Assembly: GCF_032854445.1 (NCBI RefSeq)
Contig: NC_088295.1
Span: forward strand, 59,625,249-59,689,248
Direction: 5' to 3'
Length of the DNA stretch: 64,000 bases
Source of the DNA: Liolophura sinensis
Taxonomy: Eukaryota; Mollusca; Polyplacophora; Chitonida; Chitonidae
Translations under genes and position numbers: made by a program
Notes under the pieces: model-generated
Database searches by the model: none
Seen by the model: the letters and a program-made list of their open reading frames with translations, nothing else
What the model was told of the DNA's origin: nothing
In this document: positions 1-62,689 of the stretch, one piece after another
Position numbering within the stretch: position 1 is the stretch's first letter
Layout: each line of letters opens with the position of its first letter

Positions 1-240
1 TCTACACACGCTCGAGGGATTAGCGCCATTGTTCTGCACCTTGGCTTCCAGGGACTGTTTATTTTTGTTAAAGCCAGTTTTATGGAGTATGCTAAAGTGT
101 TGAATAAGCAACAAAAAAGAGATTATGTGTCTCATTTGATATGAAAGAACATTACCGACAATTCTCACCTGAGTTAATTTGGTAATGAGTGAGGCACTAC
201 TTGGGGTCTTCCTTAGAGTGAACAGTACCTGCGAGAAGCC
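1..240 (-). promoter_or_regulatory. 5' flank of an off-window nanos type A copy
   Basis: Read on the - strand, this is the same ~240-base module found directly upstream of the nanos type A genes at 2300-2540, 7849-8100 and (on -) 21600-21830. Shared blocks include GGCTTCTCGCAGGTA, a purine-rich GAAGACC block, a GGTGAGAATT block and GCGCTAATCCC followed by GAGCGTGTGTAGA. In the other copies the TATA box and nanos ATG follow within ~100 bases. Here they would fall just left of position 1, so a nanos gene on the - strand is inferred outside the window. The module match is seen; the gene itself is not. Confidence 0.7.
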
Positions 241-1115
241 TGCGGTGAAACTTCAGCAATATGTGTCTTGAGCAGATCAAAGCTACCAACACTTGCAGAT
301 TGGTTTACTTTTTTTTTGCTCAGGTATCTCATGGACATATTAGTATTTTGACTTGTGAACCCAAGTAATATTACTATGAACACCAACTTTTTTACAATCA
401 CATGAGCATGTTTGATGCTGTTATTAATAGGACTTAATATAAAATAGTCATAATATACCTCTGTAGTGTGACGCGTGTGCTCTTGGAATTAAGTTGCTGT
501 AGGTGAACCAGTTTTACTGTCCTATATACTTACATGGAAACCAAAAGTGAAGTAAACCCTGGAAATATCACCGGTTATAATTTAAAAAATGCATCTGGCG
601 TAGAATGTGGTTACCTGTTAATTTTTGTTGAAAAGTTTAAGCTGATAAACATGGGATATAATTATTGAAATCGCATCAAATTAACATGATAATGATGACA
701 CCACATTATCAAATGCTAAACAAGTCAAATTAAGGTGATTCTAGTTTGATAAAATTAACACTTGTAAGAACTATTGGGTTGAAGGTCTGACTGTGCATTT
801 TCTGTGAATGGATGAAAGTTTATTCCTCTCAGCTAGGTAAAAAGCGATATAAGAGGCGACATATGTACATATAACAGGAGTAGTAAATTAGTTTACAGAA
901 ATATTGATAAATTTGTATGCCGTAATATTTTCTAATTTACATGGTTTTACTGTTATTTCCTAATATAACACGAATGCAGACATCCCGGGACAAATTGATC
1001 TCAAAAATAAATCCACACACGCTTTGAGGATTAAACACGAGATTAAAATCCTGACTTCCGGTACAGAACTGTTGTCATTTCCAGTCGGTTTCTTTTGCGG
1101 GTACCCAGGAGGTCT
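241..1115 (-). repeat. Inverted duplicate of the nanos A1 distal flank
   Basis: On the - strand, parts of this stretch resemble 6890-7850 on the + strand. Examples are the block around 961-1115, which matches 6890-7035 (shared AATCCTCAAAGC and a following ATATTAGGAAAT), and the block around 640-770, which matches 7190-7290 (shared TTTGATAAT and ATTTGATNNGATTT-like stretches). The duplicated unit therefore carries about 1.1 kb of 5' flank. No ORF here looks real. Confidence 0.55.
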
Positions 1116-1196
1116 TCGGGATAATAACAAAAGACAATCAATGCTTTACCAGAGAGATAAAGTCACATAGCGAATCAGACCATTAATAGGTAATAA

Positions 1197-1558
1197 GTGA
1201 GTGAGTGCTTGGGGTTTAACGTCGTACTCAACAATTTTTCAGTCATATGACGACGAAGGAATCATTAGGGTGCATGCACGTGTAATGTGCCTCCTTGTTG
1301 CAGGACGGATTTCCACCGCTCTTTTATTTAGTGCTGCATCACTGAGACGACTTACCGAAGGCAAGTAAGCCGCCCCGCCGAGCCATTATACTGATACGGG
1401 GTCAACCAGTCGTTGCACTATCCCCTTCATGCTGAACGCCAAGCGAGGAAGTTACAACTTCCTCTTTTAAAGTCTTAGGTGTGACTCGAACAAGGATTGA
1501 TCCTGATCTACCGGTCCCGAAGCGGACGCTCTACCAACTGTGCTATCCGGGCGGTCGG
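1197..1558 (-). repeat. tRNA-derived SINE, family 2
   Basis: On the - strand it starts with a tRNA-like head (a GATAGCACAGTTGGTAGAGC A-box-like stretch, then a TTCGAGTCA B-box-like stretch) and ends in a body with GTCGTCATATGACTGAAAAA. Related copies lie at 31660-31984, 39255-39590 (both -) and 41808-42165 (+). Confidence 0.75.
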
Positions 1559-1559
1559 T

Positions 1560-2295
1560 AATAAGTGAAGTGTTCCGATAATTAGGCTTTGGGTTTACAA
1601 TGCCCCCGAGGGAGGCCTGCTCTGGCGTTAAAGATTTCTGTTGAAAATTTCCTGAAAGGTTGCTTTTGGCATTGATTATATTGAAACATTATTTTTAGAA
1701 GTAGATTGTTTTGATATGTCGTACACAGAAAGATATTATGCGTAACAGCTTACGTTATACAACAGAAAGATTATGTTAGAGAAAAATAGAATTCCATCCA
1801 GGCAGACGGAATTATTTTACGAATTGAAAAATTTACGCCTACTGCAAGCATTAGATTAAAACTGGAAAGTGCATTTTCTAGAAAGATGGAATTACAGAAC
1901 GGTGTAAGAGAAAATTTGTTACAGAAAAATACATTGAATGAATAACTGAGATGTACAAAGTGTATAAACCAAATTGCAACTCGCCACTATTTACGTTTAA
2001 ACTTGTTGCAAGCGCTTTATTCAAAGCTCAAAGGGCTTGCAAATTTAGGCAAAGTTAATTATCACTCAGTACGGAACAAAAGTATTCATATGATACATGT
2101 GATGATGAAAAGTTGTTCAGCAGTTTCTCTACTGTTTGACTAACACGAAGCCATCTGTATTTAGGAAATATTTTGTCCCAGAACATATATTTTGCACATT
2201 AGATCAAGTATAAATTATAAATGTACCTATCTCAGTCTCAAAGTGTTGCCAATTAGATTTGCACAATGGCTTAAGTGTAAACTGATGATGTCGGC
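1560..2295. other. Gene-free AT-rich stretch
   Basis: No convincing ORF, splice pair or repeat family was seen. It is the space between the inverted nanos flank on the left and the pseudogene promoter module on the right. Confidence 0.5.
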
Positions 2296-2299
2296 TTCT

Positions 2300-2570
2300 C
2301 GCAGGTATTGAGTGTAAACACGTTGTCTCTATTCATGAAGACCCCAAGGTGCACCTCACGGATTACCTGCTTAACACAGGTGAGAATTTAGGTAAACTTG
2401 TTTTATTTCACACGTAAAACAATCTCTTTTCTGTTGCTTTTTCAACACTTCGTTAACGTACTCCTTATAAGGTGGCTATAGCAAAAACAAACACCCCCAA
2501 GAAGCCGGGGTGCAGAACAATGGCGCTAATCCCAGAGCGTGTGCAGATTAAAATATATAAACTCCGATTA
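2300..2570 (+). promoter_or_regulatory. nanos type A promoter module (pseudogene copy)
   Basis: This is the conserved type A upstream module followed by a TATATAAA box at 2554-2561, ~80 bases before the pseudogene ATG at 2643. It carries GCGCTAATCCC, whose TAATCC core is the kind of site bound by K50 homeodomains such as Otx or Goosecoid, and a CAGGTG E-box in the ACACAGGTGAGAATT block. Binding is inference; the blocks themselves are conserved between copies. Confidence 0.6.
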
Positions 2571-2642
2571 TCCACTCATAGGCTACATTCTTCTCCAGTT
2601 ACCTCACAGATACCTCCATACTTACAAGACAGTAACAGCGAC

Positions 2643-3254
2643 ATGGAATCCGTCAACAACTACGATTACCTTGTTGAGGGACTTTCCCGACTTGTCCTCA
2701 ATGTTGAACTTTGTCAACTGTGAAGATAACTGTAGTGATCAGAGCGGGTCTGTCTTCTCCCCGTATCCCAGTCCGACACCCAGCCATTCCTCCAGCCGCA
2801 GATCCAGTACAGAAACCTACCCTTGGATATCTCTCCAAGACGAGCTCCGTCAGTTGCTCTTCAAAGACATCAGTAGTCCCCTCAACGCCCTAGACCACAT
2901 CCGCATCACAGAACGAGATGATTTCTTCACAAACGGCGTTGACAGGGAACTAGACGAGTTTGATCTTTACCAGGTCAGACTGCGATCTTCTCCCCAGCCC
3001 TGCTCCATACCTGTTTGTCCCTGACGCACGAGCTTATCCCATCAAAGAGAAAGTCCCAATGAGAAACGCGGTGTGTGTGTTTTGCAAGAACAACGGAGAA
3101 AACTTTATCTGTATATGGTTCTCATCTTCTGAAAGACTCGAGGGGACGAGTGACATGCCCTGTTTTGCGACGGTACACCTGTCCTATATGTGGTACGTCT
3201 GGAGATACAGCCCATACCGTGAGATACTGTCCCCTGAATACCAAGTTCTTGTGA
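2643..3254 (+). pseudogene. nanos: nanos type A pseudogene
   Basis: Collinear with the intact copy at 8193-8798 from the initial [12 protein letters not shown] to the last zinc knuckle, but broken. One extra G near 2678-2680 shifts the frame after residue 12. A net +4 change between about 3000 and 3060 shifts it again before the zinc finger. An extra A near 3098-3102 breaks the frame inside the first knuckle. Both knuckles are still recognisable across frames. Promoter and TATA box are still present, so a non-coding transcript is possible. Assembly error is the other explanation, but three separate indels argue for real decay. Confidence 0.88.
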
Positions 3255-6200
3255 ACATTGAGACAATGTAAACCGTGGCATCGTGGAGTGCATGAATCTA
3301 ATCGGTAGAGCAAAGACGATGGAAATATATTTTGTTTCCGTAGTTACCTTTGCTCTGGGAGAGAAAAGGAACCTCGGCTCGAAAGATGTATTATTCAATA
3401 ACACTTTTCTTTTGTATATACCGAACTCTTACCTGTGTCTATGCTATGCCGATATTATAGAATGTATTACCTGAAAATTTTATGACTTCTATGAATATCC
3501 TTAGTTAAGCACGTCATGGGTATGATTTTATGTTTTGCATGTATTCAGCAAATTGTAAACTATACTATTCTGTATTGCATGTTTGTGTATATCTGCTTTG
3601 CCATATTAGTTTCGGATGATGTCTATTTTATTGTAACACTACTTGAAAATATACAGAATTGATCTACTGTGCTCAATGGTTTTGTGTCTGTTTCTCGAGT
3701 CATACCATGCTCCACGGGGCAGAATCCATTATAATTTATGGCCATGTGGACTTGAGTTTCTGTATCGATCAAGCCCGCATGATTGTTGGCCTGTGGTCTT
3801 TGTGTATTTTGTATGCCTCTAAGGGACACCAATAGCGAATTGTTTGGGCTGGAAGGGAGGGACATACATGTTGGGATTTTCACCGCTTCTTGTTTTTGCA
3901 TCCCGCTCATTATACTCGAGATATTCCATGCCCCGCTCATGGATACGTCTCCCCGTTTTAGTTTTGGATATTCTTCCTCACCAGGTAAGCCAAAATGAAG
4001 CGAATTCATCAGTCATATCTTGTTGACCAGTGCGCGTGGACTGATTCTTAATTACTTTATTTTCCTTCAATATGCGTTCTTCATTTTCTGTCAGTGGTTC
4101 AGCTCTCTTTGGCCTCTTACCTCTGCCTTTCTGTTCCCTTTGTTTCGATGCAAGGATGTTTGTCGAAAATCAAGCCGTGTGGATAGTTTTCTGATAGTCC
4201 CTTACATAGCGCTCTATGGCCCTATGATAACATGTCAAAATGTCCGGCTCGTCTTCCCAGCCCTTGTGCTTTCTCAAAGACAGAAGAAATGATACCACAT
4301 TTAGTTATTTCTCCCATTTTCTACTCGTGGGAAAGCTCCGAGAAATCTGATGTCACTTTCCGTCTTTCCAACAGTGTTTTTGTTCTTCATAGCCAGAACA
4401 AACTCCGATTTTTCCAACTTATCACATTCGTTGGAAGTTGATCCCTTCTCAGGGAATTGCGTGCGTTGTCTCTCGTGGTTGTCTGATTCGACGTCATCAT
4501 TGCTCACAAAGAAAGTAGATGACTCTTAATGTGCAAATAGATTGAATCTTGCTTAAACTGACAGTTGTATACGCCACAGAATGGAATCTGGTAAAACAAA
4601 AAATCACGAAGCAGACGACACAAGAAGCCGAAGCAGTTAATCATTATAAACAGTTTGCCTTTGATAATGGCATGCGGACAGTGTGGAAAAGGAAGTTAAC
4701 TTTTTCTGAGGGTTTAAGATCATTAAACCTCAGCTGTGCATGGAAATTCCCATATAGAAAGACAGAACTTTACCAGCCAGTGGTCACCCAGTACGAAAGT
4801 AGTTCGATCCCTGCGCATATTCAGAAGATGGTACTACGGAAAAATATAGTACGGTTCTGTATCAGGTGGTAACACGCATAGGTATGTGATAAATGAATAA
4901 ACTTGGTTTTTAAAAACAAAGAAATGATGCCGATCTAAATATGATTTAAAAAGAAGATTATGTCTGCACAGTAAAAAGGAAGTGAGCAGTAATCGGTCAG
5001 GACTTTCCAACGCACAATGCACTCTCCATGCAATGAATGTTGGCAAATTTGATCATTTATGGAATGTTGGCGAAAGAATGATTTTCTTCATTCCGTCCAG
5101 TTCCCCAGGGTTCTGTCCGGTTTCCTCCCATCATATTGTTGGCCACCGTCGTATATAGTTGAAATATTCTTAAGTGCGGCGTAAAACACCAATCAAACAA
5201 ATTAATAAAAAGAAAACCATTCCCTCCTGAGGCAATATCTAAACTACACATCAGTTTTACAAGTTCTCGGAGCGTTAAGTTTACTCAAAACCCACTACCG
5301 TCAGTACTGGCCGTCATATTCATCCTACTCTCCTCATACAAATAGACGTACCATAATTATATATTATTCTGGTTGAGTATGCCGTGAAGCAAACAATCAA
5401 ATAGGGAGCGTGCTTTTAATTGGTCTGGAAATATTTAAGATAAACATGTGTTTTTCAGTTCGTAGAAATTTACCCCCATGATGTCCTTGTATGTAGTTAG
5501 ATAAAATGTACACTTGCGATTGAAATATTAGATGTAAACTGCACATTAATTGTCATTTTCCAACCAAATTTACACTACTTCACATATTACAACCAGTCTT
5601 TAATAAATCCATTTTTCGGGATTAAACCCTAGATTCACGCCAGGCCTTATATAAGGAGTGTTTTCGTTCCACGCGAATTACTATTGAATATACTGACGAA
5701 CTGTGAGGCATAATGAAAACAAGGGGTATTATAGTTTTCCAAGAATGTAAACCACTTAGCTGACCAAACCCTTGTTAGGTAATGAGTGAGAGACTCCATG
5801 AGGTCTTCGTGAAAGTAAACATTAGGTCTATTTTTCTTGGTTTAACTACCTTTCGTGAGAATTAGTCGTTAGCTTGTTTTACTACACAGCTATTAAAGCA
5901 TTGCATTTTCTGTGTTGGCATACCAACACCTGGTTATCATCCTTCGCCCAATCTCGCTATAGGCGTGAACTTTCTTTTAAAACCCGGGCATAAAACAATA
6001 ACGTTAATACCCAAAGACGCTAGCTTCAAATTTTATAAACTGTACTTACCCGTATGGTTAGTGGTCAAACTTCAGAGCTTATTCATTTAAAGATGACATC
6101 TGTACAAAGTTTTCGTTTAATCAAGTTTGCTTTTACTTTCGGGTCAGTGTAAACACATGGTAATGTGTAAGGCCCTGATGTCACCGCATGCATGTAATGT

Positions 6201-7845
6201 GTAAACTTAGAAAAAAATGTGCCATCCACGTGTAACCTTGCATGACTCCTAACAGCAGATGTACTATGTACTAGTGATATATTAGTCATTCTACTCTATA
6301 TATATGATGCTTTTAAATGCACTTAATAAAGATTTCCTCCCTTTTGTAAGTCATTTACCCTTGTCATCTCTATATTTCCTTGATAATTTTACTTATACAT
6401 TTGTATATATGTATGACATGGTCTTCTAATTCGTGTTAATATTGCGATATCGTCATTCCAATTAGCTGGATAGCCAATTCTATTTGTCTGTTATCACATA
6501 ACACGTTTACTATAATTTATACAAAGTGTGCGTTATACATCATATGTGGCCTAGAATTCTTGTTACTCCGCTCTGCAGTTGTGTACGTTATGCACACACT
6601 ATAATACATCAGCATATTCTATGTCCTATATTAAACAAAAATTCACGGCTAAAACATAACTTAAAAAAATTAATCAATTCCAAAGCCAGTTTTCTGGAAA
6701 TTATTTTCAACAGAAGCCTTTTAGCACTATAGTACAGGCCCCATGGTGGCTATAAACGCAATTCTTTATTACAGGAATACCTAAGAGAACTTATCAATTA
6801 TTATCTAATAATGAGTTTGTCAGATACATGGCTTTATCTCCCTGGTTCGGCATTATTTCCCCTTTGTCATTATCCCAAACACCTACGGAGCACCATCAAT
6901 GGAAACCGGCTGGAATTCAAAACAGGGAAGTCAGGGTTTAAAGCTAGGGCTTAATCCTCAAAGCTTGCCTGGATTTATATTTTAGATCCATTGATCCTGT
7001 GATGTGGATATTTATGATATATTAGGAAATGACAACATATACATTAAAAAATATTAGGGTATGGACATTTATCAAAATTAATCCAAAACTTTTGTCATTT
7101 TGCCATGTCATTTGGCTAGGTGAGCATAAAACAGTTCATTTATTCATTCGCAGTTGTCATATTTCCCATCCATATACAATGTATATTTTATAAAACTACA
7201 AACACTTTAATTTGATCTGTTTAGCCATTGATAATTGTGTTGCAATAATCTCAGTATCAAATTCGTGCGATTTGAACAATCACATTCCAAGTTTTAACTT
7301 TTCAAGAACAATTAAAACACATTGTACCCCATGTATACATTTTAAAATAAAATATCACTGGTAATAGTTTTAGAGTTTCCTTCACGTAAGGTTTTCTTAT
7401 TTGCATGTAACAGTGAGCAGTAAAGTGATGCACCTACTGCAACGTAATTCCAAAAGCACACGCATCAAAGTAGACATAATTTTCCTTAACATTCAGTCCT
7501 ATTAAAAATTCTAGAGTAGTGAGGTCTAATAAATTGCTATTATCATCACTGCAATTTTTATTGTAATTTGCTGCACTACTTAAGACTTTACATAAACAGT
7601 TAGAATGAAATAAGTGAATTTTATATTACTGACAAAAACAGCGAAGCAATCTGTTCATGTAATTGTGAAAAAATCTTTGGCTGTCTGAGGTCATGCGAGA
7701 TTCACAACTCGAAAAAGTAATATATTTAAAAAACGTCGAATCGAAAACAAATATCAAGTACAGTACCACAGATATAGATGCATTTAAATCATTCTCCATA
7801 TGTGAAGCTTTGATCTGCATTATGTAATGACACAGGTGAAATTTC
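3255..7845. other. Long gene-free interval between nanos copies
   Basis: It begins with the decayed pseudogene 3' flank, whose GGAGTGCATGAAT block matches the 3' UTR of the 8193 copy. Several ORFs of 60-130 codons occur at 3.6-4.9 kb on both strands with no family resemblance. A SINE fragment lies at 5089-5215. A degenerate nanos-type promoter fragment lies at about 5785-5830 (GGTAATGAGTGAG, then GGTCTTC, - strand). The part from 6890 on is the duplicated 5' flank of nanos A1. Confidence 0.5.
5089..5215 (+). repeat. SINE family 1, 3' fragment
   Basis: Contains the family body in sense orientation: GGTTTCCTCCCATCAT, then GAAATATTCTTAAG, then GGCGTAAAACACCAATCAAA. The tRNA-like head is missing. 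Confidence 0.75.
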
Positions 7846-7848
7846 ACG

Positions 7849-8110
7849 GCTGGCTTCTCGCAGGTACTCTTTACTTTCAGGAAGACCTCAAGCAGTGCCT
7901 CACTCGTTACCTAATTAGCTAAGGTGAGAATTGTCGGTAATGTTCTTTAATATAAAAGGTGAAACATAACCTAGTTTTGTTGCTATTTCAACACGTCTTT
8001 AACTTGTATATATAAACTGGTATTAGCAAAAACAAACAGACCCTATAGAAGCCTGGGTGCAGAACAATGGCGTTAATCCCCAGAGCGTGTGTAGATTAGA
8101 ATATATAAAC
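7849..8110 (+). promoter_or_regulatory. nanos A1 promoter module with TATA box
   Basis: The full type A module runs from GGCTTCTCGCAGGTACT through CTAATTAGCTAAGGTGAGAA and GCGTTAATCCCC to an ATATATAAA box at 8101-8109. The ATG is at 8193, so transcription probably starts around 8130. The same order and spacing occur in the other type A copies, which supports selection or recent duplication of the whole promoter. Confidence 0.7.
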
Positions 8111-8192
8111 TCCGATTACCCACTCATAGGCTACATTCTTCTCCAGTTACCTCACTGATATCACTCCATACTTACAAGACAGTAACAGCGAC

Positions 8193-8798
8193 ATGGAATC
8201 CGTCAACAACTACGATTATCTTGTTGAGGACTTTCTCGACTTGTCCTCAATCCTAAACTTGGTCAACTGTGAAGATAACTGTAGTGAGCAGAGCGGGTCT
8301 GTCTCTTCCCCGTACCCCAGCCCGACCCCTAGCCACTCCTCCAGCCGCAGGTCCAGTACAGAAACCTGCCCCTGGATATCTCTCCAAGACGAGTTCCTTC
8401 AGTTGCTCTTCAAAGACATTTCCAGCCCGCTCAACGCCCTAGACCACATTCGCATCACAGAACGAGATGATTTCTTCACAAACGGCGTCGAGAGGGAAAT
8501 GGACGAGTTTGATCTTTACCAGGTCAGATTGCGATCTTCTCCCCAGCTCTACTCCAGATCTGTTGTCTCAGATACACAAGGTCAGCCCAGCAAAGATGTC
8601 CCAATGAGAAACACAGTGTGTGTGTTCTGTAAGAACAACGGAGAAACTCTCTCTGTGTATGGTTCCCATCTTCTGAAGGACTCGAGCGGAAGAGTGACGT
8701 GCCCTGTTTTGCGAAGGTACACCTGTCCTATATGTGGAACATCTGGAGATACAGCGCATACCGTGAGATACTGTCCGCTGAACAGCAAATTCTTGTGA
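8193..8798 (+). CDS. nanos: Nanos homolog, type A, copy A1
   Basis: Single-exon 201-residue protein ending in a complete nanos zinc finger. Knuckle one has Cys143, Cys146, His159, Cys170 (C-x2-C-x12-H-x10-C); knuckle two has Cys178, Cys181, His189, Cys194 (C-x2-C-x7-H-x4-C). This spacing is diagnostic for Nanos, which binds RNA with Pumilio and represses translation in germline and stem cells. The N-terminal half is rich in Ser, Pro and acidic residues, with no domain I recognise; I see no clear vertebrate-type NOT1-interacting motif. The ATG is the first in frame after the TATA box and is shared by the other type A copies. The stop TGA lies inside a GTGAGAG string that resembles the splice donor found after the type B stop. 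Confidence 0.95.
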
Positions 8799-9150
8799 GA
8801 GACGATTTAAAGGGTATCATCATGGAGTGCATGAATCCGTTCAAGGAGACATTGAAGTAAAAGTATTCTGCGTGCCTTCAGCATCAACAAATCAAATGTG
8901 TCACTGATTGACGCTCCTCATTGTGTGTACTCAACTGACTTCCTTTACTGTTGGTTGTATGTCACGAAACTTACTTGTCTTTTGCGTATATTGTCTGGAC
9001 TGATCAGTTGCTTGGCACGTTTTTTGTACAAACTTACTCATTTGCATGCATTTAGCAAATATGTACATTACATTATATTGTATTTTGCATGCTTTTATGT
9101 AAGCTTTTCCACATTACTAACTTGGTGATTGTAACACAAATGTAACTGAA

Positions 9151-9156
9151 AATAAA
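9151..9156 (+). terminator. Poly(A) signal of nanos A1
   Basis: AATAAA about 350 bases after the nanos A1 stop, at the end of an AT-rich 3' UTR. The pseudogene keeps only part of this UTR. Confidence 0.6.
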
Positions 9157-9179
9157 CTTATTACCTATACATTTTTAAA

Positions 9180-11130
9180 CATTGTATCTCGTTCCTGAGA
9201 CCTGTGTCATACGACACGTTCCAGGTTAGGTTTATACACGTAGTACTTTTCAAAAGGAAATGAAACAAACAGATACCCAAAATAAGAAAATGGAACCGAC
9301 TGAGCTCTAGCTTTTGTGCAAACTAGCAGTGTCAAACACCATTGAATTAAGCAAGATATGTGGAATCTTCTCCGAGAGCGTCTTCTCCAGTTAAGGTATG
9401 ACAGCGGAACATCGTATCTATATCAGTTTGCTGGCGAAGAAGCTCCGAGAGTGCAAACATCCACTCCAGTAAAATGTGCAGATCCGTCGATCGCTACAGA
9501 CAAACGGCCAATATTGTGCATTTCTAAGAGTAAGAATCGTAAGAATTCCTGACCCGGACTACCGCAAAAACCTTTCTGGTCTTTACTTAGCCTTTGACCA
9601 AGCTGTGCACAAACCAAGACCGCGCGTCGCAATTTTTCGTAAAATTGTAGACAGACAGAGTCTAAAGGTAATCCAGATACAATACAATCGTGTCTGGCTC
9701 TCTTCAGAGTACTGCCTGTTTGTAATACTTTTACTCAGCTAAGATTCTATGGACATTTTTTTATTTATTCAGGCAATTTCGTTTTAAGCTACAACAGCGG
9801 ATATCCTCACTTGGGGTTCATCACCCTATAATGCATGGTTTGCTTCATCCAGAGAAGGGCAGGATTAGAATTCTCCAGGCAGTATTAAAGTTGTAAATTA
9901 AACTGTTTTTTATTTTCCTGTAACTTTAGGTACAGACTTCGTTGACGCCCATACGGTTTTGGCGTAAATCAGTCGGAGAGTCCCACTGGGTGACTGGCAC
10001 ACGGCGATATTCCCAACACCAACTACTTGCTATCAGCGTAAAGTTAGTTAGATAATGTGGTAAAAAGTTCTTCAAGGTTACTTAATAGCCATGATTTCTC
10101 ATTGCCAACATGTGTCCAGCAAAAATGGAACCCATCTTTTCATAGAGGTGCTTAAGCAAATATTCTCATATTGGCCCAAGGAAATCATACGAGTGTAATT
10201 ATGGCTATTCAACATCAAAGTCTGAAATACTTAGAAAGGGCGTTGTTTAATTGTATCCATCAATTGCATGGATCCGGAAATATATTTATGCTAACCATGT
10301 TTGGTCAAGGAAAGCTATGTTAGGTGACCGATATAACTGATCGCCTTTTATTATTAAATGACTTTTGATTTAACAATTAGAGACATCAAAGGAAAATAAA
10401 TGAAATAATTTTTCACAAACACTAGAAATGGTGTTAAGGAGCGATAATAATATTTTGATTGGTTGGCTATGTGAGAACACGATAGACCTTTCTGACGCCC
10501 TGGTCTGTCCCATATGCTGACTTTTGGGAAACTGGTGGGATTTTTTATTTTTCGGCGATGTAACTTCTCTACAGACAACCGTTTCACAATTTTACGCGGT
10601 ATTACTTACACCTACATTTACAGTTGTGATATAGGTACATGTATTATGTCACCATAGTTGTTACGCGTGAGACGAAATCTGATTGCATCTATGCGTTGGT
10701 TAGAACCGTGTGACTCACTCCTACTAGCGTATACATGAATTATTCGTGGGTGTGGCGTTAAGAGACAAACATAGAAACCAATCAAATTCTCGAATATTTT
10801 GCATGGGCACCAGAACTTTATTGAGCTGATTTTATTTGAAAATGAAAAAGAATCAGCTAGTCTAACGGAGTTGTGGCTGCATCAGAAATACTCCAATCTC
10901 TTGTCATTTTCATGTAGGTTTTATGCAGAATTTTTGTCTGGTATCCTGGCATTTTACGGTTAGCATCGTCGTCTATATAAGAGGTATTCTTCAGTACCCC
11001 AAATGAATCATAGAGGTAAATAAGTCTCCTTGCGGGGCAGATGTGACATCTCAGTTGGAACAAACTTACAGGGGAAAAGGCTAAGGGAAACTTGTCACGT
11101 TCTGCGATAACCTAAAGAAAACAGTCATGT
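9180..11130. other. Gene-free interval
   Basis: Only short scattered ORFs (up to 88 codons) without family features. No repeat family was recognised. It separates nanos A1 from the oppositely transcribed small acidic-protein gene. Confidence 0.5.
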
Positions 11131-11155
11131 TCAAATATGTGGTATGCAGTGTAGT

Positions 11156-11161
11156 TTTATT
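11156..11161 (-). terminator. Poly(A) signal of the acidic-protein gene
   Basis: AATAAA on the - strand, ~225 bases downstream of the stop at 11385. Confidence 0.5.
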
Positions 11162-11384
11162 GAAGCTATACACGCAGTAACAAACAGCATGTGGTCAGTA
11201 ACAGTGTAACAGTTTCATAACATAGCATCCAAACAGAACCAAATACATTTAAAAAAAAGTAACATGTTCAGCAAAACAGCAACAGACCCATAGTCCTTTC
11301 ACCCGTGGAAATACTTTTCTCCTCCAGAAGCCATGTATTGTTTAACCACATCGAGGTATTTTCTAGTCAAACAAATCTCCATTG

Positions 11385-16312: not shown

Positions 16313-17489
16313 TTCATGCTATCAAAGCATTAACAGTAAATTCCTGAAATGAGGCAGGAACCTATAGACATTATTACACCAGCTGACAACCAAAATGGAA
16401 GTTCTGGGTCAATAATCACAAAACCAATTTTTAAAACGACTTTCGATTCAAATCACCAAAGAACTAAGAGTAATTAGGACGGATCGATGCAAACAGATGC
16501 AGTCAGCAGTTTTCATTGATGATGAAAAGATGTAAAGGAATGTGTTAGTTGAATTAATTAAATTAGTATCAGAATCAGGTATCACGTTAGTTTATAATAT
16601 AATCAAAATATGTATCTCAGTTGGCTTTAACTGCGATTGGTGTTCTTACTCAATGTCTAAGCTACGGGTTGGGCGGAATTAGAAACAGTTGTGGAGCAGG
16701 AACTTGTTCCAGTGCAGTTTTAATTACTCGTGTGGCTGATTTAAAGAGTAAACTTTTCTAGGATCTTGTACTCCCACCCCACTGTTAAATTGTTTGGTCA
16801 TTTCACACTTTATTCAAATGTATTTCTCGCCACGATATGGCTGGAAAATAGCCGATGTGGCTTTAAGCCGTATTTATTCTTTCAAATGTATTTTCATGTC
16901 GCTCCTCGGAGAAGGGGAAGGTAGTTGTTGATTGGTTAAAAATACATTTACAACAGCACAAGGAACCATGATTTTTTCACATGATTAGCCGAGTGTTACA
17001 AAAAAATTGTTAAAGACTTTAAATTCTATAATGCATGGCATAAGTTTATGAGGATATTGCAGTTATTTACTTAGCTGATTGTTTTATGTGTGACATTTTG
17101 ATGGCACAAAAATCTTAACACAGAAAGAAATATTCGCCATAGTTATTAAATTTAAAGATAAAGGATAAATTAGATTTAAATTAAGAACTTCCAGCACAAA
17201 TGTTTTTAATGGAAATCAATGTAATAAATTTCCTAAATGTATGGTACATAGTAAGTAAAATGTCCAATGTTATACTATAGGTTAACGCAACAAACTGTCT
17301 TTCAAAATTGATTTTTAAGTGTATTTCATAACAAACGCAGAATCTTTCTCTGTTATAGCTTTCAATGTAGGTCTTAAAGTTTTAATTTTATTTCCAGGTT
17401 AGTAAGATAATGTGCCCAAAAATAATTTAACTTCATGTCCAGCTCTTAAATATATATTTCACATATTGCATGTTTGACAACCCTGTGAC

Positions 17490-17740
17490 CACTCTCATCC
17501 ATGAAGTAATGAAATCGAAACTGACGTTTCTGGTTTCCCCTTTGGTTTAAATTTGTGCTTAGGGGCCTATATTTGTTCCTTCCCTATGGTTAAATTACAC
17601 GAAGCGACCATTCAAATCTTATACCTGTATGCAAAGCAGAGAAGTAGACTCCGTGATGGCATGGGCGTTGTGATTACAAGAAGGGAAACAATGGTGGTTA
17701 ATCTGTTAATCTCTTGAGCCCAATAAATAGACCCTGGCTT
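17490..17740 (+). promoter_or_regulatory. nanos B1 upstream block with TATA-like box
   Basis: It matches 24800-25060 upstream of nanos B2 in several blocks: CATGAAGTAAT/CGTGATGTAAT before AAATCGAAA, TTCAAATCTTAT, and the proximal AATCTCTTGAG followed by CCAATAAATAGA. The AATAAATAG at 17722-17730 stands ~85 bases before the ATG and is the best TATA-like candidate. The sequence differs from the type A promoter module. Confidence 0.5.
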
Positions 17741-17809
17741 CTGAACATCCGGCACATACAGTGCAAACAGCCGGACATAAAGTTACACTTCCACAACAGA
17801 CCACAAATC

Positions 17810-18418
17810 ATGGACAACTTCCCGACGTATAACCTGTCTGGACAAACTAGCCCTGTAGACTTCACCGCCATATTTGGATCGGCTAGATCGGATCGAGGAC
17901 AGAAACCAGTGACGTCATCTGTCTCCGGACAACCACGAGCTATCGTCGGTTCATCCAGTTTCTTCAGTCCAATGTACCAACCTCCTGCCAATGTTTGGCA
18001 AAACCTAGAAGATGACATCTCCTCGTCTCGCCAGTCGGAGTACACGAGTCCCCCGAGAATGAACCGTCATGGCGCGAGTTCGACACCAGCTCTCGTTACT
18101 TATTCCCAGACACAGCATAACCCATCATTGTTAGAGACGACGTTGCCACTTTGTGACCAGTTTCCCAGCCAATCAAGAGCCAGAAGATCTACTGTATCAT
18201 CACCACCAGCCAAGTTTCCTCACGCCACCATATCCGTCTGTGTTTTCTGCAAGACAAACGGCGAACGTCTTTCCCAGTACGGCTCTCATGTGCTGAAGGA
18301 CTCCGCTGGCAGAGTTACCTGTCCTGTTCTGAGACGTTACACCTGTCCTATATGTGGCGCTTCAGGTGATGCGGCACATACCGTCAAGTACTGCCCCCTC
18401 AACACACAAACCCTCTGA
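17810..18418 (+). CDS. nanos: Nanos homolog, type B, copy B1
   Basis: A 202-residue protein with a complete nanos zinc finger: Cys144, Cys147, His160, Cys171 and Cys179, Cys182, His190, Cys195. The N-terminal half starts [12 protein letters not shown] and is rich in Ser, Pro and Gln; it is unrelated by eye to type A. The frame is open further upstream to 17714, but the first ATG is at 17810 and matches the start of B2, so I use it. A single G separates the stop from a GTGAGAACGA donor, and CTATCCAG ending at 18598 is a matching acceptor, so the 3' UTR is probably spliced. Compared with B2, residues up to about 120 are nearly identical and the stretch before the zinc finger has diverged. Confidence 0.94.
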
Positions 18419-18419
18419 G

Positions 18420-18598
18420 GTGAGAACGAAAGACTGTCACATTATATATACACACTTTATTCTGTTTTTATTCTCTAGATTGCAAATCGTAAATGGAAAA
18501 TCTTGCATTGCCTAAACTCTAGATTGCAAATCGTAAATGGAAAACCTTACATAGCATACACGTGTATTACATTTTCCTTTCTCATTTCTTCTATCCAG
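18420..18598 (+). other. Probable 3' UTR intron of nanos B1
   Basis: Donor GTGAGAAC lies one base after the stop and the acceptor is TTCTATCCAG. The following exon starts ATACCTTCCAA, the same as after the corresponding intron of B2. It contains a ~50-base tandem duplication with ATTGCAAATCGTAAATGG near 18480-18540. Confidence 0.65.
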
Positions 18599-18816
18599 AT
18601 ACCTTCCAAACTTCGAACCTCGACGCCAGTGCTACATGTTAACATCGCCTGTCATTTTGTTTAACATTGTATTGGAACAACTCCCGGACATCCGACAGAA
18701 GGAAATAACGTGTTTGACTGATCGTGACTGATGTATCTCGTTCATATATAATCGTACCGATAACAGATGACTTTGTATCTGTGTTTTTTTTTATTTATTG
18801 TGGTTTTTACATGCGT

Positions 18817-18822
18817 ATTAAA
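18817..18822 (+). terminator. Possible poly(A) signal of nanos B1
   Basis: ATTAAA ~220 bases into the last 3' UTR exon. A weaker hexamer variant, chosen only by position. Confidence 0.35.
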
Positions 18823-18829
18823 TCCATAT

Positions 18830-20360
18830 AGTAAAGATTTAGTGCTTTTTGCAAGCCATTTATCGTGTTGTCATCTTGATGTTATTATTCGATAAATGCT
18901 CGTATTTTTGTTACACAAGGAAATGGATTGTATACTTGGTGTCCATATTTTCGATATTGAACTGTTATAGTAAGGTCTTTGAGACATTCATATAAACGTG
19001 TGGTACTCTTCTGTCTCATGCACGATGTCAAGGGAATTGAGATTTTATTGTCTGTGACACCTTAGCTGTATACATTGGCAAAATGTTTTTTTGCCAATCG
19101 AGCTGAATAGAAATGGTTTCTTGTTGTCATATGACATAAGTTAAGAACAAATCGTGAACTGTGATGGGAGAACGGTAATGTGTTTGTTTTACTTTTTCTT
19201 GCGGGTTCAAGGCATTTGAAAATGTCATGGTATCCATACCTTATTCCTTTAAAGGTTTCCACTTTTTCGCAAAATGATTTTTGTGATACAGGCTACACAC
19301 GGAAAACGTTTTCTACTAAGCCATATGACAAACAAAACGGGCAAGCAATGGGTGAATTAATTTCAAAGCAATATCTCAATAACTTTAATATAATTGTTCT
19401 AGTGAAACTTGTTAGGCGTACTACTACTCAAGAAGTTTTTGCTGACATTACCGTGGTCAGTTTTATGGGTGGAAGAGTTCCAGGGTTAAACCATTGATAT
19501 TTGGCATGTTACTGGCGAACATTCGCGCGTGCCATCACGGTGGAAGACAAGAACGTTAGGCCGTCCTACGCATTCAAATGATCCGTCCAAAATGCATTGT
19601 CACCATGACCGAAAGCGTAGTAATCCACAAATTACCCGTGCAAGGCTGGGAATGAATCCACGCCTAGACGCAGTGTCTTAGCCGTTCGCCTAAATTGAAA
19701 TCATTAAAATCAGTAAATTATATTAATAATAATAATATTAAACTTAATATAGTACATGTACCTAATAGAGCTTTCTGTAACTTATATTGTCTAGGAAAGG
19801 ATTGCGTCCTTTTCGGCCAAACGCTTTTTCCTTACCTTTTTTTTAACTTGTGTAAACTTTAACTTGTGTAAACTTTCAATTCCTACAAATTTGTGACATC
19901 ATTGAGACATCATTGTGACATAGTCATGGTCATGGTCATTCCATCCGACGGCTCAGTGGGAAGGAAATGAATAACAAGATAATTGTAATGAGACTTATTC
20001 CAGATACACGAGGTCAGTCCCACATCTCGAGTGGGAGGCCCAGGCCCAGGCACTCTGACTTTTCTAATCTTTAATTCGAGTAGAAAAGACAACAAAACGT
20101 TCATCAAAGTGAAATTCAGTACACGTAAAGTGGCCTAAAACAGGATATTTTATTCACTGTGTGAGACCAAGAGAAAACGAAATATACAATTTACATATTT
20201 ATTACATCCTTGGTGTCTATGTATACATAACACGCGCTAAAGTAAGAGAAAATGGCAGATTGCAAACAACATACATGGCTACGAACACTTTGTATTTAAA
20301 CGTATACATATTCGTACAAAAATGTACATACAAATATCGTGTCAAAACAAAAACAACCAA
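18830..20360. other. Gene-free interval
   Basis: Short ORFs only (up to 105 codons at 19180-19497) with no family features. A short tandem of AACTTGTGTAAACTTT lies near 19845-19880. Confidence 0.5.
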
Positions 20361-20367
20361 AAAAAAA

Positions 20368-20370
<3 letters not shown>

Positions 20371-20401
<31 letters not shown>

Positions 20402-20591
20402 ATTGGTGTTTTACGCCGTACTCAAGAATATTTCACTTATACGACGGCGGCCAGCATTATGGTGGGTGGAAACCGGGCAGAGCCCGGAGGAAACCCACGA
20501 CCATCCGCAGGTTGCTGACAGACCTTCTCACGTACGGCCGGAGAGGAAGCCAGCATGAGCTGGACTTGAACTCACAGCGACCGCATTGGTG

Positions 20592-20645
<54 letters not shown>
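20371..20645 (-). repeat. SINE family 1 flanked by poly(T) and poly(A) tracts
   Basis: A 191-base SINE body (20401-20591) reads GATTGGTGTTTTACGCCGTA on the + strand, i.e. antisense. A 30-base T run (20371-20400) is at one end and a ~54-base A run (20592-20645) at the other. The tRNA-like head is missing: the copy stops at GCATTGGTG, where the A run starts. Confidence 0.8.
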
Positions 20646-20649
<4 letters not shown>

Positions 20650-20901
20650 TAATTACTCGTGTTACGGGTGTAAGAAGATAATAAACTGTCCACATCAAGC
20701 ACAATCCGATGTCAATGTTTATGTTGTCTCTCACAAGTCTTATGATAGCAGGAATCCAGTTTGTAAATTCTCTCCGGATAGTACAAAAATTGCCCCCGTA
20801 GGCAATAGTCTCTACCGAGCCAGGCGTGACAGTTCAGAAACTACAAGATGCAGGACCGGAAACTACAGCCATCATAAAGCACCGTTCGAAGTTTATATCG
20901 T

Positions 20902-21510
20902 TTATCTAAAGCACTTGGTGTTCAGGGGACAGTATCTCACGGTATGGGCTGTATCTCCAGACGTACCACATATAGGACAGGTGTACCTTCGCAAAACAGG
21001 GCACGTCACTCGTCCCCTCGAGTCCTTCAGAAGATGAGAACCATATACAGATAAAGTTTCTCCGTTGTTCTTACAGAACACACACACCGTGTTTCTCATT
21101 GGGACATCTTTGCTGGGCTGAACTCGTGTATCTGAGATAACAGATCTGGAGTAGAGCTGGGGAGAAGATCGCAATCTGACCTGATAAAGATCAAACTCGT
21201 CCAGTTCCCTGTCGATGCCATTTGTGAAGAAATCATTTCGCTCTGTGATGCGGATGTGGTCTAGGGCGTTGAGTGGACTACTGATGTCTTTGAAGAGCAA
21301 CTGACGGAACTCGTCTTGGAGAGATGTCCAGGGACATGTTTCTGTGCTGGATCTGCAGCTGGAGGAGTGACTGGGGGTCGGGCTGGTGTACGGGGAGCAG
21401 ATAGACCCGCTCTGCTCACTACAGTTATCTTCACAGTTAACCGCGTTCAGGATGGAGGACAAGTCGAGAAAGTCCTCAACAAGGTAATCGTAGTCGTTGA
21501 CGGATTCCAT
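20902..21510 (-). CDS. nanos: Nanos homolog, type A, copy A2
   Basis: Single-exon 202-residue protein that starts [20 protein letters not shown] and is close to A1 throughout. It has the same finger positions (Cys143, Cys146, His159, Cys170; Cys178, Cys181, His189, Cys194). The C-terminus differs: it ends NTKCFR before TAA, without the GTGAGAG string seen at the A1 stop. It lies on the opposite strand, between the two type B genes, so the cluster has been shuffled by inversion or transposition. No obvious AATAAA was seen on the - strand downstream before the SINE at 20645. Confidence 0.94.
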
Positions 21511-21583
21511 GTCGCTGTAAGTGTCTTGTAAGTATATCTGTGAGGTAACTGGAGAAGAATATGGCCTCTGAGTGAATAATCGG

Positions 21584-21830
21584 AGTTTATATATTCTAAT
21601 CTACACACGCTCTGGGGATTAGCGCCATTGTTATTCGCCCTGGCTTCTAGGGTCTGTTTGTTTTTGCTAAAGCCATTTTACATCAAGTGTGTTAAAGAAC
21701 TGTTGAAATAGCAACAAAAAAGAGATTAATTTTTACGTGTGAAATAAAAGAACTTTGCCGACAGTTCTCACCTGTGTTAATTAGGTGATGAGTGGGGTTC
21801 TCCCTGGGGTCTTCCTGGAAGTAAACAATG
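21584..21830 (-). promoter_or_regulatory. nanos A2 promoter module with TATA box
   Basis: The type A module lies on the - strand: a TATATAAA box at 21586-21593, then, moving away from the gene, the TAATCCCC block, the GTTGCTATTTCAACA block and the CTAATTAACACAGGTGAGAA block. Order and spacing match the A1 promoter. Confidence 0.7.
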
Positions 21831-21839
21831 TGGGTACAT

Positions 21840-24780
21840 GCAGCCAATATCTATACATGTATGTATTATGAATTTTAAACCAAGGCATTGTGCAGAGAAA
21901 AAAGTGAAAGTAAACATTTTAGCCTAGTAACTTATGTTCATATTTGTTTTGGTCGGGATATCTCTTGAAACAAGAATTGTAAATTTATGGTGGATCCCTT
22001 TTCTCATCAAATGGTTTTTAATGGGACCAAATATTCAAAAATTTCTCTCCTTGGTAAGATCCATGTTCTTTCGGAACGCTGTAGTAGACAATTCTTTTTA
22101 CTGTCCTATGTATGTTATATTGCTAATTTTTGAACCAAGCCCTATATTTGATATTCTTAAAACATAAAGGGGCGAGACCCATTTCCAAGATAAAGTAAAA
22201 AAAACCTAAAGTTCTAAAGGAATATGTAAAAAATATTTATTTATTGATTTGATTGGTGTGTTCTGCCATACTCAAGAATATTTCACTTCTACAACAGCGT
22301 CCAGTATTATGGTGAGGAAAAAACCGGGCAGAGCTCGGAAAAAACCCACGACGTAAAAACCCCCGACCCAGGTGCGTAAAAAAGAAAATTAGAAACTTTT
22401 TTGCGAATACAGCTACTAACACTTAAGAGTGAAGGTGTCAAAAGTTTTCAGTGATGCAGGGTAAATATTTGGCATGATAATTTCAACCCTGTTTAATAAT
22501 TAAACATTAGTAATGTTCAGGTCAAATACAAACATCTCTGTCGCGCTTCTATTCCAACTGTCCATAAAACCATCTTGTTGATGTAATCAACATGAATTCT
22601 TTGAAATATTAGACATTTAGATCGAAGGCGTTTGATGAAGTATCCTTCACACGTTAGTTTTTCAATCAATACTTTGTGACGTAGATTGAAATCATCACAT
22701 TTCACGTAGGACCAATTACAAGGTATGGCAAGGAAAGTAACAAAGGCAAAAAATAGAATCCAAATGGAATTGTTGTATTTCTGACTTGTTGCATCACGTC
22801 AGCTTCCAATTCACTCTATATTGTGTCCTGATTCCTTACACCATATGTAGTGTATTGACTGTTGCTATTGGATTGTCATTGTGCGATGAGAGTCCAAATT
22901 GGTGATAGACAGAAATGACACGACGTGGCGAGTTTCCCTCACCTGTACCTGTACCTTCAGTGTAACAATAGATATAATTCTTTTGTTTGTTGGAAGATAA
23001 TTATGTGATAAACACATATAGTTTATTCTTCTTGCTCATTTATTGTTGGTAGTTCCAAACGTAATACAAATATTATCAAGGGTCAAATGAATGTTATTTC
23101 ATATCAAACAAAATGTACGTTTCTTTCCGAAAAACAAAATCCCACAATATCCAACTACAGCGTGTTGCAGGTGTTGGCTCTGTGCCAAGTGTTAAATCAA
23201 ACAGAAACCCCAGGGAGCGTCTCTATAATTAGCAAAATTACCTAAGGTGAGAAGCTTTCGTAAAGAACAGAGTAACACCGCACACCCGGGGCTTAATGTC
23301 ATTGTTTCGTATCTCGCCTTCTTCGGACTCATTCATTCAATGTTTTTCATTCAACGGATCCTTGATGGTATATTTGAAATCAGACACCGTTAGCCTCACA
23401 AGTCTCACTTGCATTGGTTGTATAGGTAATGTTGCCTAAACCATGACTGAACTGGTGAACTACGAGTGCCCGAGGCCTGGTCTTTTTGGATTGAGTCCAT
23501 GTGATTATTTATTAAATGTGATGACCACACATTATTTTCATTAATTCTTAATAAAAAAGCTACTAATAATCAACTAATATTCCTTTTTTTTTCAAGTGTT
23601 TATTCCACACTATTGATGATATCGCCTAACGAATAGCTGTGGAAAGCTTGAAAAAAGCTAGTGTTACAATAAACTCTTTAGTGTTTGAGTTAATTTCAAA
23701 CATACAAAGTTGATACAGCTGCATATCGCACCTGTTTTCATATTACACGTAGCGCGTGTTTTCTTTTGACATATTTAGTTAATAATTTGTTGAAGACGTA
23801 GGAACTACAAGCACAAGCTGTCTGTAGTTTACTTTGGGTGTAACAATTCTATTTAATATTTCTCACCTGAGTTAATTAGTAACTGAGCGTGGTGCTTTTA
23901 CGGAGGTCTTCCTGTGGGAAAAGAACAGATTTACAACTACCCGAGGGGTCTTGCTTCATAGGGTATCTACTATCAATCACATATTAAAGGCTTTAAATGG
24001 TTTACTAATAAATAAACATGATATAGTTGATTTTTCTCATATGTTAAGTTTAACGTATTCAACTAAAAATAATATGCTGCTATACTGAAATTATTCGTTC
24101 ACAGTATATAAATTCGAGACAGAAGTGAAGATTTTAAAGTGGAATTTAAAGAATACTATGAAATATTTTCTTTTGGACACAGCTGATCGAATGAGACTAT
24201 ATGTGTATGTACACGTATATATACGAGACGGAAATGCTACATGAGGTTATGCTGTCTTCAGGTGACACTTGAAAACGGTATTCGTACTGTTCATTCAAAT
24301 TACATTTGAACAAATATCTCGTTCATCGAATTAAATACTGTGGGTCATGACGATTTGTTCCCCTTAAAAACTACAGACAGTTAAGAGAGTGTTTGTAAAA
24401 ATGATGCAAAATACACCACGAAAAACTTCACCTCCCACCCACCCACGGACAACTTTTAAGAAAACCATTACCGCTCCCCCCGCCCCCCTCACCCGTTTGG
24501 TTATTTGTATACATACTATAGGACTACTTCTGGAAAGCTACAAGCCCGCCACGTTTGACAATTCTGGAGACATATTCGCAACTACAGACTCGTTTTAATT
24601 TTTTGACGGAAAATTTTAGCTCACTCTACTCTTACGTGTTACAGAGTAATATTTCCCAAAATTGGTTTTAATTACACCTTTTAGATTGGTGTAAAGCATT
24701 TTCAGGAAATAAAAGGGACATATCTTTCCTATGTTTTCATGGTAGGTAGAAAGCAAATAGTAACAAAAATACTAAACTTC
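21840..24780. other. Gene-free interval with promoter-module fragments
   Basis: No convincing gene. A SINE family 1 piece lies at 22235-22352. Fragments of the type A module recur at about 23225-23260 (AATTACCTAAGGTGAGAA, +) and 23860-23915 (TTCTCACCTGAGTTAATTAG then GAGGTCTTCCT, -), without a nanos ORF beside them. They may be remnants of lost copies. Confidence 0.5.
22235..22352 (-). repeat. SINE family 1 fragment
   Basis: Antisense tail and body: GATTTGATTGGTGTGTT, CTCAAGAATATTTCACTT, then a CCGGGCAGAGCTCGG region. The head is missing. Confidence 0.7.
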
Positions 24781-24799
24781 CTATCCAGTTGTTGGTATA

Positions 24800-25060
24800 T
24801 TTCACATACAGTGAGTCTGACGACTCTCGTCCGTGATGTAATTAAATCGAAAAGGAACTTTGCTGCTTCCGGGCACATGTTGTTTTTTAGCCGCGCTTAT
24901 GTGGCCATAGTATTTCACTCCCTAGGGTTAAGTTACCCCAAGCCGCCTTTCAAATCTTATCCTTATATGCAAAACAGGGAAGAAGACCTCATGATGGTTT
25001 GAATGAAGTAAAACAGCTAATCCGATAATCTCTTGAGTCCAATAAATAGATCCTCGGTTC
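24800..25060 (+). promoter_or_regulatory. nanos B2 upstream block with TATA-like box
   Basis: Collinear with the block before B1. The conserved AATCTCTTGAGTCCAATAAA places AATAAATAGA at 25041-25050, ~90 bases before the ATG. Confidence 0.5.
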
Positions 25061-25133
25061 TGTAAATCCGGAACAGAGAGTGCAAAAGCCTGACCAGAAC
25101 ACAAGTCATCACATCCAAAACCGACCACAAGTC

Positions 25134-25751
25134 ATGGACAACGTTCCGAAATATAACCTGTTTGGACAAACTAGCCCGGTAGACTTCACCGCCATATTTG
25201 GATCGGCTAGAACGGATCGATTACAGAAACCAGTGACGTCATCTGTCTCCGGACAACCACGAGCTATCGTCGGCTCATCCAGTTTCTTCAGTCCAATGTA
25301 CCAACCTCCTGCCAGTGTTTGGCAAAACCTAGTAGATGACATCTCCTCGTCTCGCCAGTCGGAGTACACGAGTCCCCCAAGAATGAACCGTCATGGTGCG
25401 GGTTCGACACCAGCTCCCGTCACTTTTCCCCAGACACGGTATAACGCTTCACTGCCAGGAACGTCCACACCGACACCTCATGACCAGTCTCCCAGCCTAA
25501 CAGGAACGCCCTCCAGAAGATCTACTCTATCGTCTCCACCAGTCAAGTTTCCTCACGCCACCATATCCGTTTGTGTTTTCTGCAAGACGAACGGCGAACG
25601 TCTTTCCCAGTACGGCTCTCATGTGCTGAAGGATTCTAGCGGAAGAGTTACCTGCCCTGTTTTGAGGCGTTACAAATGTCCGATATGTGGCGCTTCAGGG
25701 GATGCGGCACATACCGTCAAGTATTGTCCGCTCAACACACAAACTCTCTGA
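25134..25751 (+). CDS. nanos: Nanos homolog, type B, copy B2
   Basis: A 205-residue protein starting [12 protein letters not shown], closely related to B1. Finger residues are Cys147, Cys150, His163, Cys174 and Cys182, Cys185, His193, Cys198, with Lys in place of Thr just before the second knuckle (YKCPIC). The frame is open upstream to 25080 without an ATG, so the shared MDN start is preferred. A donor (GTGAGAACGA) starts two bases after the stop, as in B1. The linker before the finger differs from B1 by substitutions and an insertion, while the flanks are nearly identical. Confidence 0.94.
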
Positions 25752-25752
25752 G

Positions 25753-25938
25753 GTGAGAACGACAATATAAACTTATGTAAACTACAATTTATTCTGTTTG
25801 TATACTCGATACTGTAAATCCGGAAAATCAAACCATTGTCGTTATATAGGTATGAAATGATTGATGGAAAATCATATTGGCCCCTTGAATATAGGCCTAA
25901 TGTGTATTAAAATTTACTTACCTTTTGTTTGTTTTCAG
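25753..25938 (+). other. Probable 3' UTR intron of nanos B2
   Basis: Donor GTGAGAACGA and acceptor TTTGTTTTCAG, followed by ATACCTTCCAACC as in B1. The conserved exon start in two copies whose intron interiors have diverged supports real splicing. Confidence 0.7.
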
Positions 25939-26480
25939 ATACCTTCCAACCTTTGAACATCAACACCAGTGCTCCATATTAACATCACCTGATGTCAAGA
26001 TGTCTTGACCTTTGATCTTTGACCTTCTACTTTGTTTTTGTATATATCATAGCTTTATATGTTAATATAGACATATGTTATATGCGCTTGTTATGAAGAT
26101 ATTGTGCCTTTGTAATCCGTAAGGCTTGCTTTTGCATGCAATAGTATACAAGCATGATATTTTTTTTACCAGATAGATTGCAATGTTTATGTGCACACGC
26201 CACACATCTTGTCTTCTTAATCGTCTCCACCATTGCGATATGCATGTATCACGATAAACGAACCTGGTATCATGTCTTGCTCTGTTGTAAATGTATGTCA
26301 CATTTGAGCGGTAAAGTTTAGTGCTCGGGCATCGTGAAAAAGGCAGGTGAGAAACACCTTCATGGGAACAGATTATCGACCCTGTTAACTTGTTTTGCTT
26401 CATTGTTTTTACCTTGTGCACAGTAGTTTCAGGAACTACCTTCGAAAGCATTTCTTTGTCATACCATACTGCTGTACAAC

Positions 26481-26486
26481 AATAAA
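26481..26486 (+). terminator. Poly(A) signal candidate of nanos B2
   Basis: AATAAA ~545 bases into the terminal 3' UTR exon; the first good hexamer after the acceptor. Confidence 0.45.
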
Positions 26487-47316: not shown

Positions 47317-47492
47317 AAATAGCATTTGAGAAAGATAATGTGTATTCTATAACTGAATGAAATGGTACTTTTTTCAATTATTGATAAAAATATATTTATA
47401 CAAACTTTTAAACGACTATTCATTGAAAGATAAAAACAATCGAAAAATGATTAAAATGTTCAGACTGAATACGTCACTGTTTTAGTGCGCAG

Positions 47493-62682: not shown

Positions 62683-62689
62683 CCTTCCT

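Follow-up and report, generated by a model that had tools for sequence, protein, structure and literature searches.

The stretch of 64,000 nucleotides analysed here (the window, C1:59625249-59689248 on scaffold 1, contig NC_088295.1, of the chiton Liolophura sinensis) carries part of a cluster of nanos genes, and the same genome holds a large tandem array of nanos copies on scaffold 11 (C11). In total, approximately 165 copies were counted in the assembly: nine in the cluster, three at single loci and approximately 153 in the array. Nanos is a widely conserved family that animals need for making germ cells, and its copy number is reported as one to few. We consider it probable (approximately 0.6) that the cluster represents a long-established family of paralogues under selection, each in a single frame and apparently without introns, shaped by duplications at the locus, some of them inverted, and by losses, and that the array is a macrosatellite which may act as a collective multicopy gene. 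All the results come from one assembly of one chiton (609 Mb in 632 contigs). According to the published text available, this assembly (GCA_032854445.1) was obtained with hifiasm, purge_dups and YaHS from 14x PacBio HiFi reads with a mean length of 8,347 bases (PMC11068029). The species was named Liolophura japonica in the original publication, which was later corrected to L. sinensis (PMC12441733).

The cluster spans 38 kb (C1:59612769-59650999) and comprises nine copies, seven of them intact: class A has five intact members and both broken ones, and class B has the other two intact members (Table 1). A six-frame motif scan identified four fingers in open frames of the window, all with the spacing C-x2-C-x12-H-x10-C and C-x2-C-x7-H-x4-C that the initial annotation of this DNA had described, and the Pfam zf-nanos profile (PF05741) matched all four intact copies at 88-89 bits (cut-off 27, E approximately 1e-25), ruling out a chance match. 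The decayed copy noticed at the same time was also recovered: A5 is 88% identical to A6, and its reading frame shifts at least three times while the finger nucleotides remain. The inverted flank at the window start proved to be the promoter side of a genuine minus-strand copy, A4. This flank is an inverted repeat of positions 7837-7978 upstream of A6, and window positions 1-80 and 95-224 are direct repeats of 21600-21827 on the upstream side of A7. One off-window copy had been proposed; A4 is indeed present just outside, but the number was too low, as the suggested leftward extension of the sequence revealed four copies (A4, A3, A2 and A1). Neither the window nor the 19 kb to its left contains a single N. 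The composition of the cluster agrees with the birth and death of nanos copies that had been suggested for this locus.

The N-terminal parts of classes A and B are unrelated and each is conserved within its own class; the RNA-binding finger is nearly identical between the two. The class B N-terminal part matched no other locus in the genome (two matches; 5 of 5 candidates scored). The TATA-type boxes also differ by class, with TATAAA located 81-89 bases upstream of the ATG in all five intact class A copies and AATAAATA in class B. The synonymous divergence (dS) amounted to 0.20-0.42 across nine class A pairs, excluding A3/A4, which lies off the window and is the sole pair nearly as close as alleles. 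The ratio of nonsynonymous to synonymous divergence (dN/dS) was 0.14-0.30 across the ten class A comparisons. For the two class B copies it was 0.32, with a value of 0.06 for the finger and 0.55 for the N-terminal part. The excess of silent changes was significant in every cluster pair (Fisher p 7e-6 or lower; 0.03 for A3/A4). The heterozygosity of this genome is given as 1.24% in the text available (PMC11068029). The dS values of the window copies (0.25 for A6/A7 and 0.27 for the class B pair) far exceed this level, so the cluster copies are old relative to allelic differences, and haplotype duplicates, which the initial annotation had named as the observation that would refute it, were rejected as the source of the window copies. 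The cluster copies are real paralogues under purifying selection.

The whole-genome search for nanos that had been recommended revealed three single loci outside the cluster and the large scaffold 11 array. In the zf-nanos profile search, 150 of 204 candidates were scored and all 150 exceeded the cut-off of 27 bits; 141 of these 150 matches are located at 17.95-18.20 Mb of C11, all on the minus strand. The array occupies 248,610 bases (C11:17948612-18197221), and its copies are arranged head-to-tail. The DNA read on this scaffold covered positions 17,941,001-18,138,521 and 18,176,900-18,206,899, minus 187 bases, with approximately 38 kb of the array remaining unread. It contained 128 finger-bearing copies, namely 85 intact and full length, 16 full length and disrupted, 17 without the promoter and the first 61 coding bases, and 10 further partial ones; no opposite-strand match was present in the array DNA read. 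The matches listed add 25 copies in the unread DNA, which gives 153; 13 of these 25 have the open frame of 218 residues typical of intact full-length units (202 residues from the ATG). A 21-base array pattern returned 133 matches, of which 114 fit the DNA read and one falls in the unread 187 bases; the remaining 18 would be accounted for by the 24 copies in the unread stretch (100 of the 133 places were listed). A spacer query returned 155 first-look candidates, the best 40 of which were scored and were all inside the array. No second array and no stray array units were found elsewhere among the matches listed (40 to 150 places per search; protein and family searches of the genome covered the best 150 places at most). 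The left array edge carries truncated copies. A 22.1-kb block occurs twice in the array; the two are identical over at least 14.2 kb, and their exact match stops where the DNA read stops. The copy number is approximate, because the array assembly crosses one 200-N gap and contains an exact repeat that exceeds the mean read length.

The commonest unit spacings were 1,673 bases (38 cases), 1,672 (31) and 1,520 (10). The consensus unit of 1,673 bases consists of 1,064 spacer and 609 coding bases with an uninterrupted frame of 202 amino acids, and carries TATAAATA 53 bases upstream of the ATG and AATAAA 96 bases past the stop codon. TATAAAT was present in 101 of the 103 copies retaining the 5' end, and AATAAA in 96 of the 97 aligned units. 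Among the 85 intact copies there are 38 different coding sequences, encoding 35 different proteins, and the array paralogue shares its N-terminal stretch with class A. From the 123 gap-free units, the 97 with a length of 1.60-1.70 kb were aligned and the other 26 were left out. Their mean pairwise divergence was 1.15%, neighbouring units were more alike than in 2000 of 2000 permutations, and the similarity dropped with distance. Such a pattern fits a tandem array that is either young or under continual homogenisation, and in which single copies are dispensable. Two further elements were noted at these loci. An exon-like ATGGCGCTACGAGACTATCTCAGGGACAGAAAAAAG followed by GTATGAG is placed about midway between genes in the array spacer, in every consensus unit. 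A dispersed element, a candidate mollusc short interspersed nuclear element of Meta-SINE type, occurs between the nanos copies of the window (20386-20477 and 22236-22327) and also in the flank of the C11 array.

The three remaining loci comprise D, elsewhere on scaffold 1, and a pair on scaffolds 3 and 6 (C3 and C6). The fingers of the C3/C6 pair are 87% identical, with a dS of 0.57 and a dN/dS of 0.36 over 139 codons. Both loci look like multi-exon genes, because their open frames start next to AG splice-acceptor-like sites. A partial genome duplication is reported for this chiton in the part of the publication available (PMC12005716), and the pair may be a product of it. The CCHC/CCHC spacing (2-12-10 and 2-7-4) was present in 11 of 11 sequences (A1, A3, A4, A6, A7, B8, B9, D, the array consensus, C3 and C6), and the proteins have the Nanos architecture, with a finger near the C-terminal end and a variable N-terminal part. 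The closest solved structures, and the sole strong matches, were those of Drosophila Nanos (5KL1 and 5KL8) and zebrafish Nanos (3ALR); 5KL1 contains the Nanos finger together with RNA and Pumilio. The finger alone was too short for a tree to resolve the order of A, B, D, E and the C3/C6 pair; a tree including the N-terminal parts placed B apart from A, D and E, on very long branches. An AlphaFold model of A6 based on a four-row alignment reached a mean predicted local distance difference test score of 35.7 and was set aside. Matches to the PUF family (Pumilio repeats) were confined to one locus (C3:17741551-17748778; six matches, with all 50 candidates scored), so Pumilio, the customary partner of nanos, has not been multiplied. 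Nanos is described, in the text available, as an mRNA repressor that recruits the CCR4-NOT complex and can act with Pumilio, and the CNOT1-interacting motif as conserved in vertebrates and some invertebrates, not in every nanos (PMC4003280). Judging from the family, the cluster and array proteins would act with Pumilio, binding target mRNAs by the finger and repressing them.

Taken together, these data suggest that a further paralogue, which has its N-terminal stretch in common with class A, expanded on scaffold 11 to form a macrosatellite of approximately 153 head-to-tail units of typically 1.67 kb, each full unit being a complete-looking, putative transcription unit with a TATA box, an ATG, a nanos frame of 202 amino acids and AATAAA. 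We are less sure of the further step, in which the units would be expressed jointly, as a collective multicopy gene of the germ line or early embryo, and no single copy would matter; we infer such collective expression as the preferred reading, and the neutral pattern among the copies fits a passive satellite equally. Several results weigh against it. The coding parts of the aligned units showed 71 nonsynonymous (N), 21 synonymous (S) and three stop changes versus 109, 40 and 7.5 expected at spacer rates; all three kinds were rarer than spacer changes, and the N:S ratio was indistinguishable from neutral (71:21 versus 109:40 expected, p 0.41). Frame-breaking indels made up 24 of 27 in coding DNA and 41 of 45 in the spacer, at equal density, and finger cysteines were lost in single copies. 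With no purifying selection seen among them, single array copies look dispensable, and the neutral N:S ratio, the indels and the lost cysteines give no support to a maintained function of single copies. A CNOT1-binding motif is known in vertebrate and some mollusc nanos; the pattern F-x2-W-x-D-Y-x2-L was not found in the A, B, D and E frames, nor within 10 kb upstream of the C6 finger exon (only the finger exon was read in C3 and C6). The motif is not needed for membership of the Nanos family, because insect and annelid nanos are, to our knowledge, without it. Its absence from the A, B, D and E frames implies that recruitment, if any, would proceed through another part, a candidate being the DFxTNG...DE(F/Y)D stretch common to A, D and the array. 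It is rather doubtful that array copy number, not single copies, determines how much nanos the germ line or early embryo receives, as a natural copy-number dial that is perhaps transmission-driving.

The main rival, to which we give less than even odds, is that the array is passive satellite DNA carrying nanos by chance, mostly silent and grown by unequal exchange, with the other loci doing the work. The neutral N:S ratio and unbiased indels speak for it, as do the 43 of 128 copies read that are truncated or disrupted and the duplicated 22.1-kb block. However, 85 of these 128 copies are intact and their TATA box and AATAAA are near-invariant, although intactness is weak proof at a divergence of about 1%. 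In addition, the array paralogue was not found outside the array among the matches listed, so the array would be the sole source of its gene if that gene is needed. The combination of a germ-cell regulator with a homogenised tandem array of intact and truncated forms is also compatible with a product of genetic conflict, such as a driving or suppressor array of the Stellate kind spreading via germ cells, an improbable origin in our judgement. That the array is mostly an assembly artefact or merged haplotypes, with a far lower true copy number, is very unlikely. The 14x coverage with reads of 8,347 bases on average, the 200-N gap, the exact repeat of at least 14.2 kb and a unit divergence close to the heterozygosity (1.15% and 1.24%) speak for such an error; yet adjacent 3.2-kb stretches in one part of the array differ at 13-20 positions, similarity falls with distance, truncated and full units alternate, and more than 100 distinct places are hard to produce from one locus by error. 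On this evidence, the doubt is limited to at most about one 22-kb block. With regard to the cluster, classes A and B might split nanos work between cell lineages or stages, a tentative proposal compatible with the selected cluster and collective array preferred here; the initial annotation had raised such a subfunction for germ cells, stem cells or larval tissue. Their different N-terminal parts, conserved per class, and their different TATA-type boxes favour it, whereas the nearly identical RNA-binding finger does not; on the sequence of the unrelated N-terminal parts, a functional difference at the class level is plausible.

Table 1. Positions of nanos copies and associated elements (window positions unless a scaffold is given; aa, amino acids)
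Feature	Position	Strand	Details
A1, intact class A	C1:59612769	+	
A2, broken class A	C1:59614618	-	
A3, intact class A	C1:59619521	-	dS 0.03 to A4
A4, intact class A	ATG C1:59625154	-	
A4 5' flank (promoter side)	1..255	-	A4 ATG 95 bases left of the window
A5, broken class A	2643..3254	+	88.4% DNA identity to A6 over 612 bases
TATAAA of A6	8104..8109	+	89 bases upstream of ATG
A6, intact class A	8193..8798	+	201 aa; single unbroken ATG-to-stop frame
Finger of A6	8619-8774	+	six-frame motif scan
B8, intact class B	17810..18418	+	202 aa; N-terminal part of its own
TATA-like AATAAATA of B8			88 bases upstream of ATG
Finger of B8	18239-18394	+	six-frame motif scan
A7, intact class A	20902..21510	-	202 aa; TATAAA 81 bases upstream of ATG
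Finger of A7	20929-21084	-	six-frame motif scan
B9, intact class B	25134..25751	+	205 aa
TATA-like AATAAATA of B9			93 bases upstream of ATG
Finger of B9	25572-25727	+	six-frame motif scan
D, single open frame	C1:24.54 Mb		224 aa from ATG; N-terminal part 41% identical to class A
C3 nanos, finger exon	C3:3981192-3981374 (3.98 Mb)		
C6 nanos, finger exon	C6:24224823-24225005 (24.22 Mb)		

The window contains further features besides the nanos copies. A 48/51-base repeat array is located at 28711-29545, and its open frame on the minus strand is connected with a match to a ligand-gated ion channel. A tandem repeat with a CPHACSYLQKAYLSTC-like unit occupies 47460-49124 and is open in several minus-strand frames, and two exons of a rhodopsin-family receptor (Pfam 7tm_1) are present on the minus strand at 57385-58044 and 62203-62688. 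No RNA gene exceeded the Rfam gathering score, and no tRNA was found, in one array locus, both array flanks and the 10 kb to the left of the window.

Among the open-licence papers listed, we found no description of clustered or arrayed nanos genes in chitons or of any large nanos array, and no paper combining Liolophura and nanos as whole words; a search on macrosatellite terms returned no paper. The word nanos was not found in the main text, as available, of a chiton genome comparison (PMC12005716). An old selected cluster together with a young or continually homogenised array of about 150 copies makes it possible to test how the dosage of a germ-cell regulator is determined and whether macrosatellites with developmental regulators, such as DUX4, arise anew in unrelated animals. 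The published genomes of other chitons permit direct comparison.

Compared with the Nanos family (PF05741) at large, the chiton proteins have the same eight zinc ligands in family spacing and the same C-terminal finger. They differ in the number of copies in one genome (approximately 165), in A, B, D and E frames without the vertebrate-type CNOT1 motif, and in N-terminal parts that are, as far as seen, specific to this genome. The Drosophila Stellate array is likewise made of tandem homogenised copies of a protein gene, with intact and broken forms together; its gene is unrelated. Small nanos families share with the chiton the presence of paralogues with the same finger, but one or two copies are reported elsewhere versus nine clustered and approximately 153 arrayed here: for the annelid Alitta virens a single nanos was considered the likeliest case (PMC8871563), and two were described in a centipede (PMC4111900), in both cases according to the portions of text available. 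A macrosatellite carrying a developmental regulator is already known from human D4Z4, in which DUX4 is, in the text available, a retrogene expressed at early cleavage (PMC12376486). On the sequence of this one assembly, the D4Z4/DUX4 type would be the nearest known kind for the scaffold 11 array: many units of more than 1 kb lie in one orientation (approximately 153 copies in 248,610 bases), the unit holds an open frame (in 85 of 128 copies read) and homogenisation is local (1.15% divergence; 2000 of 2000 permutations). In both, units of a few kb follow one another head-to-tail and each carries a developmental regulator, whereas the gene is unrelated, the array unit is half as long and every full array unit has a TATA box and AATAAA.

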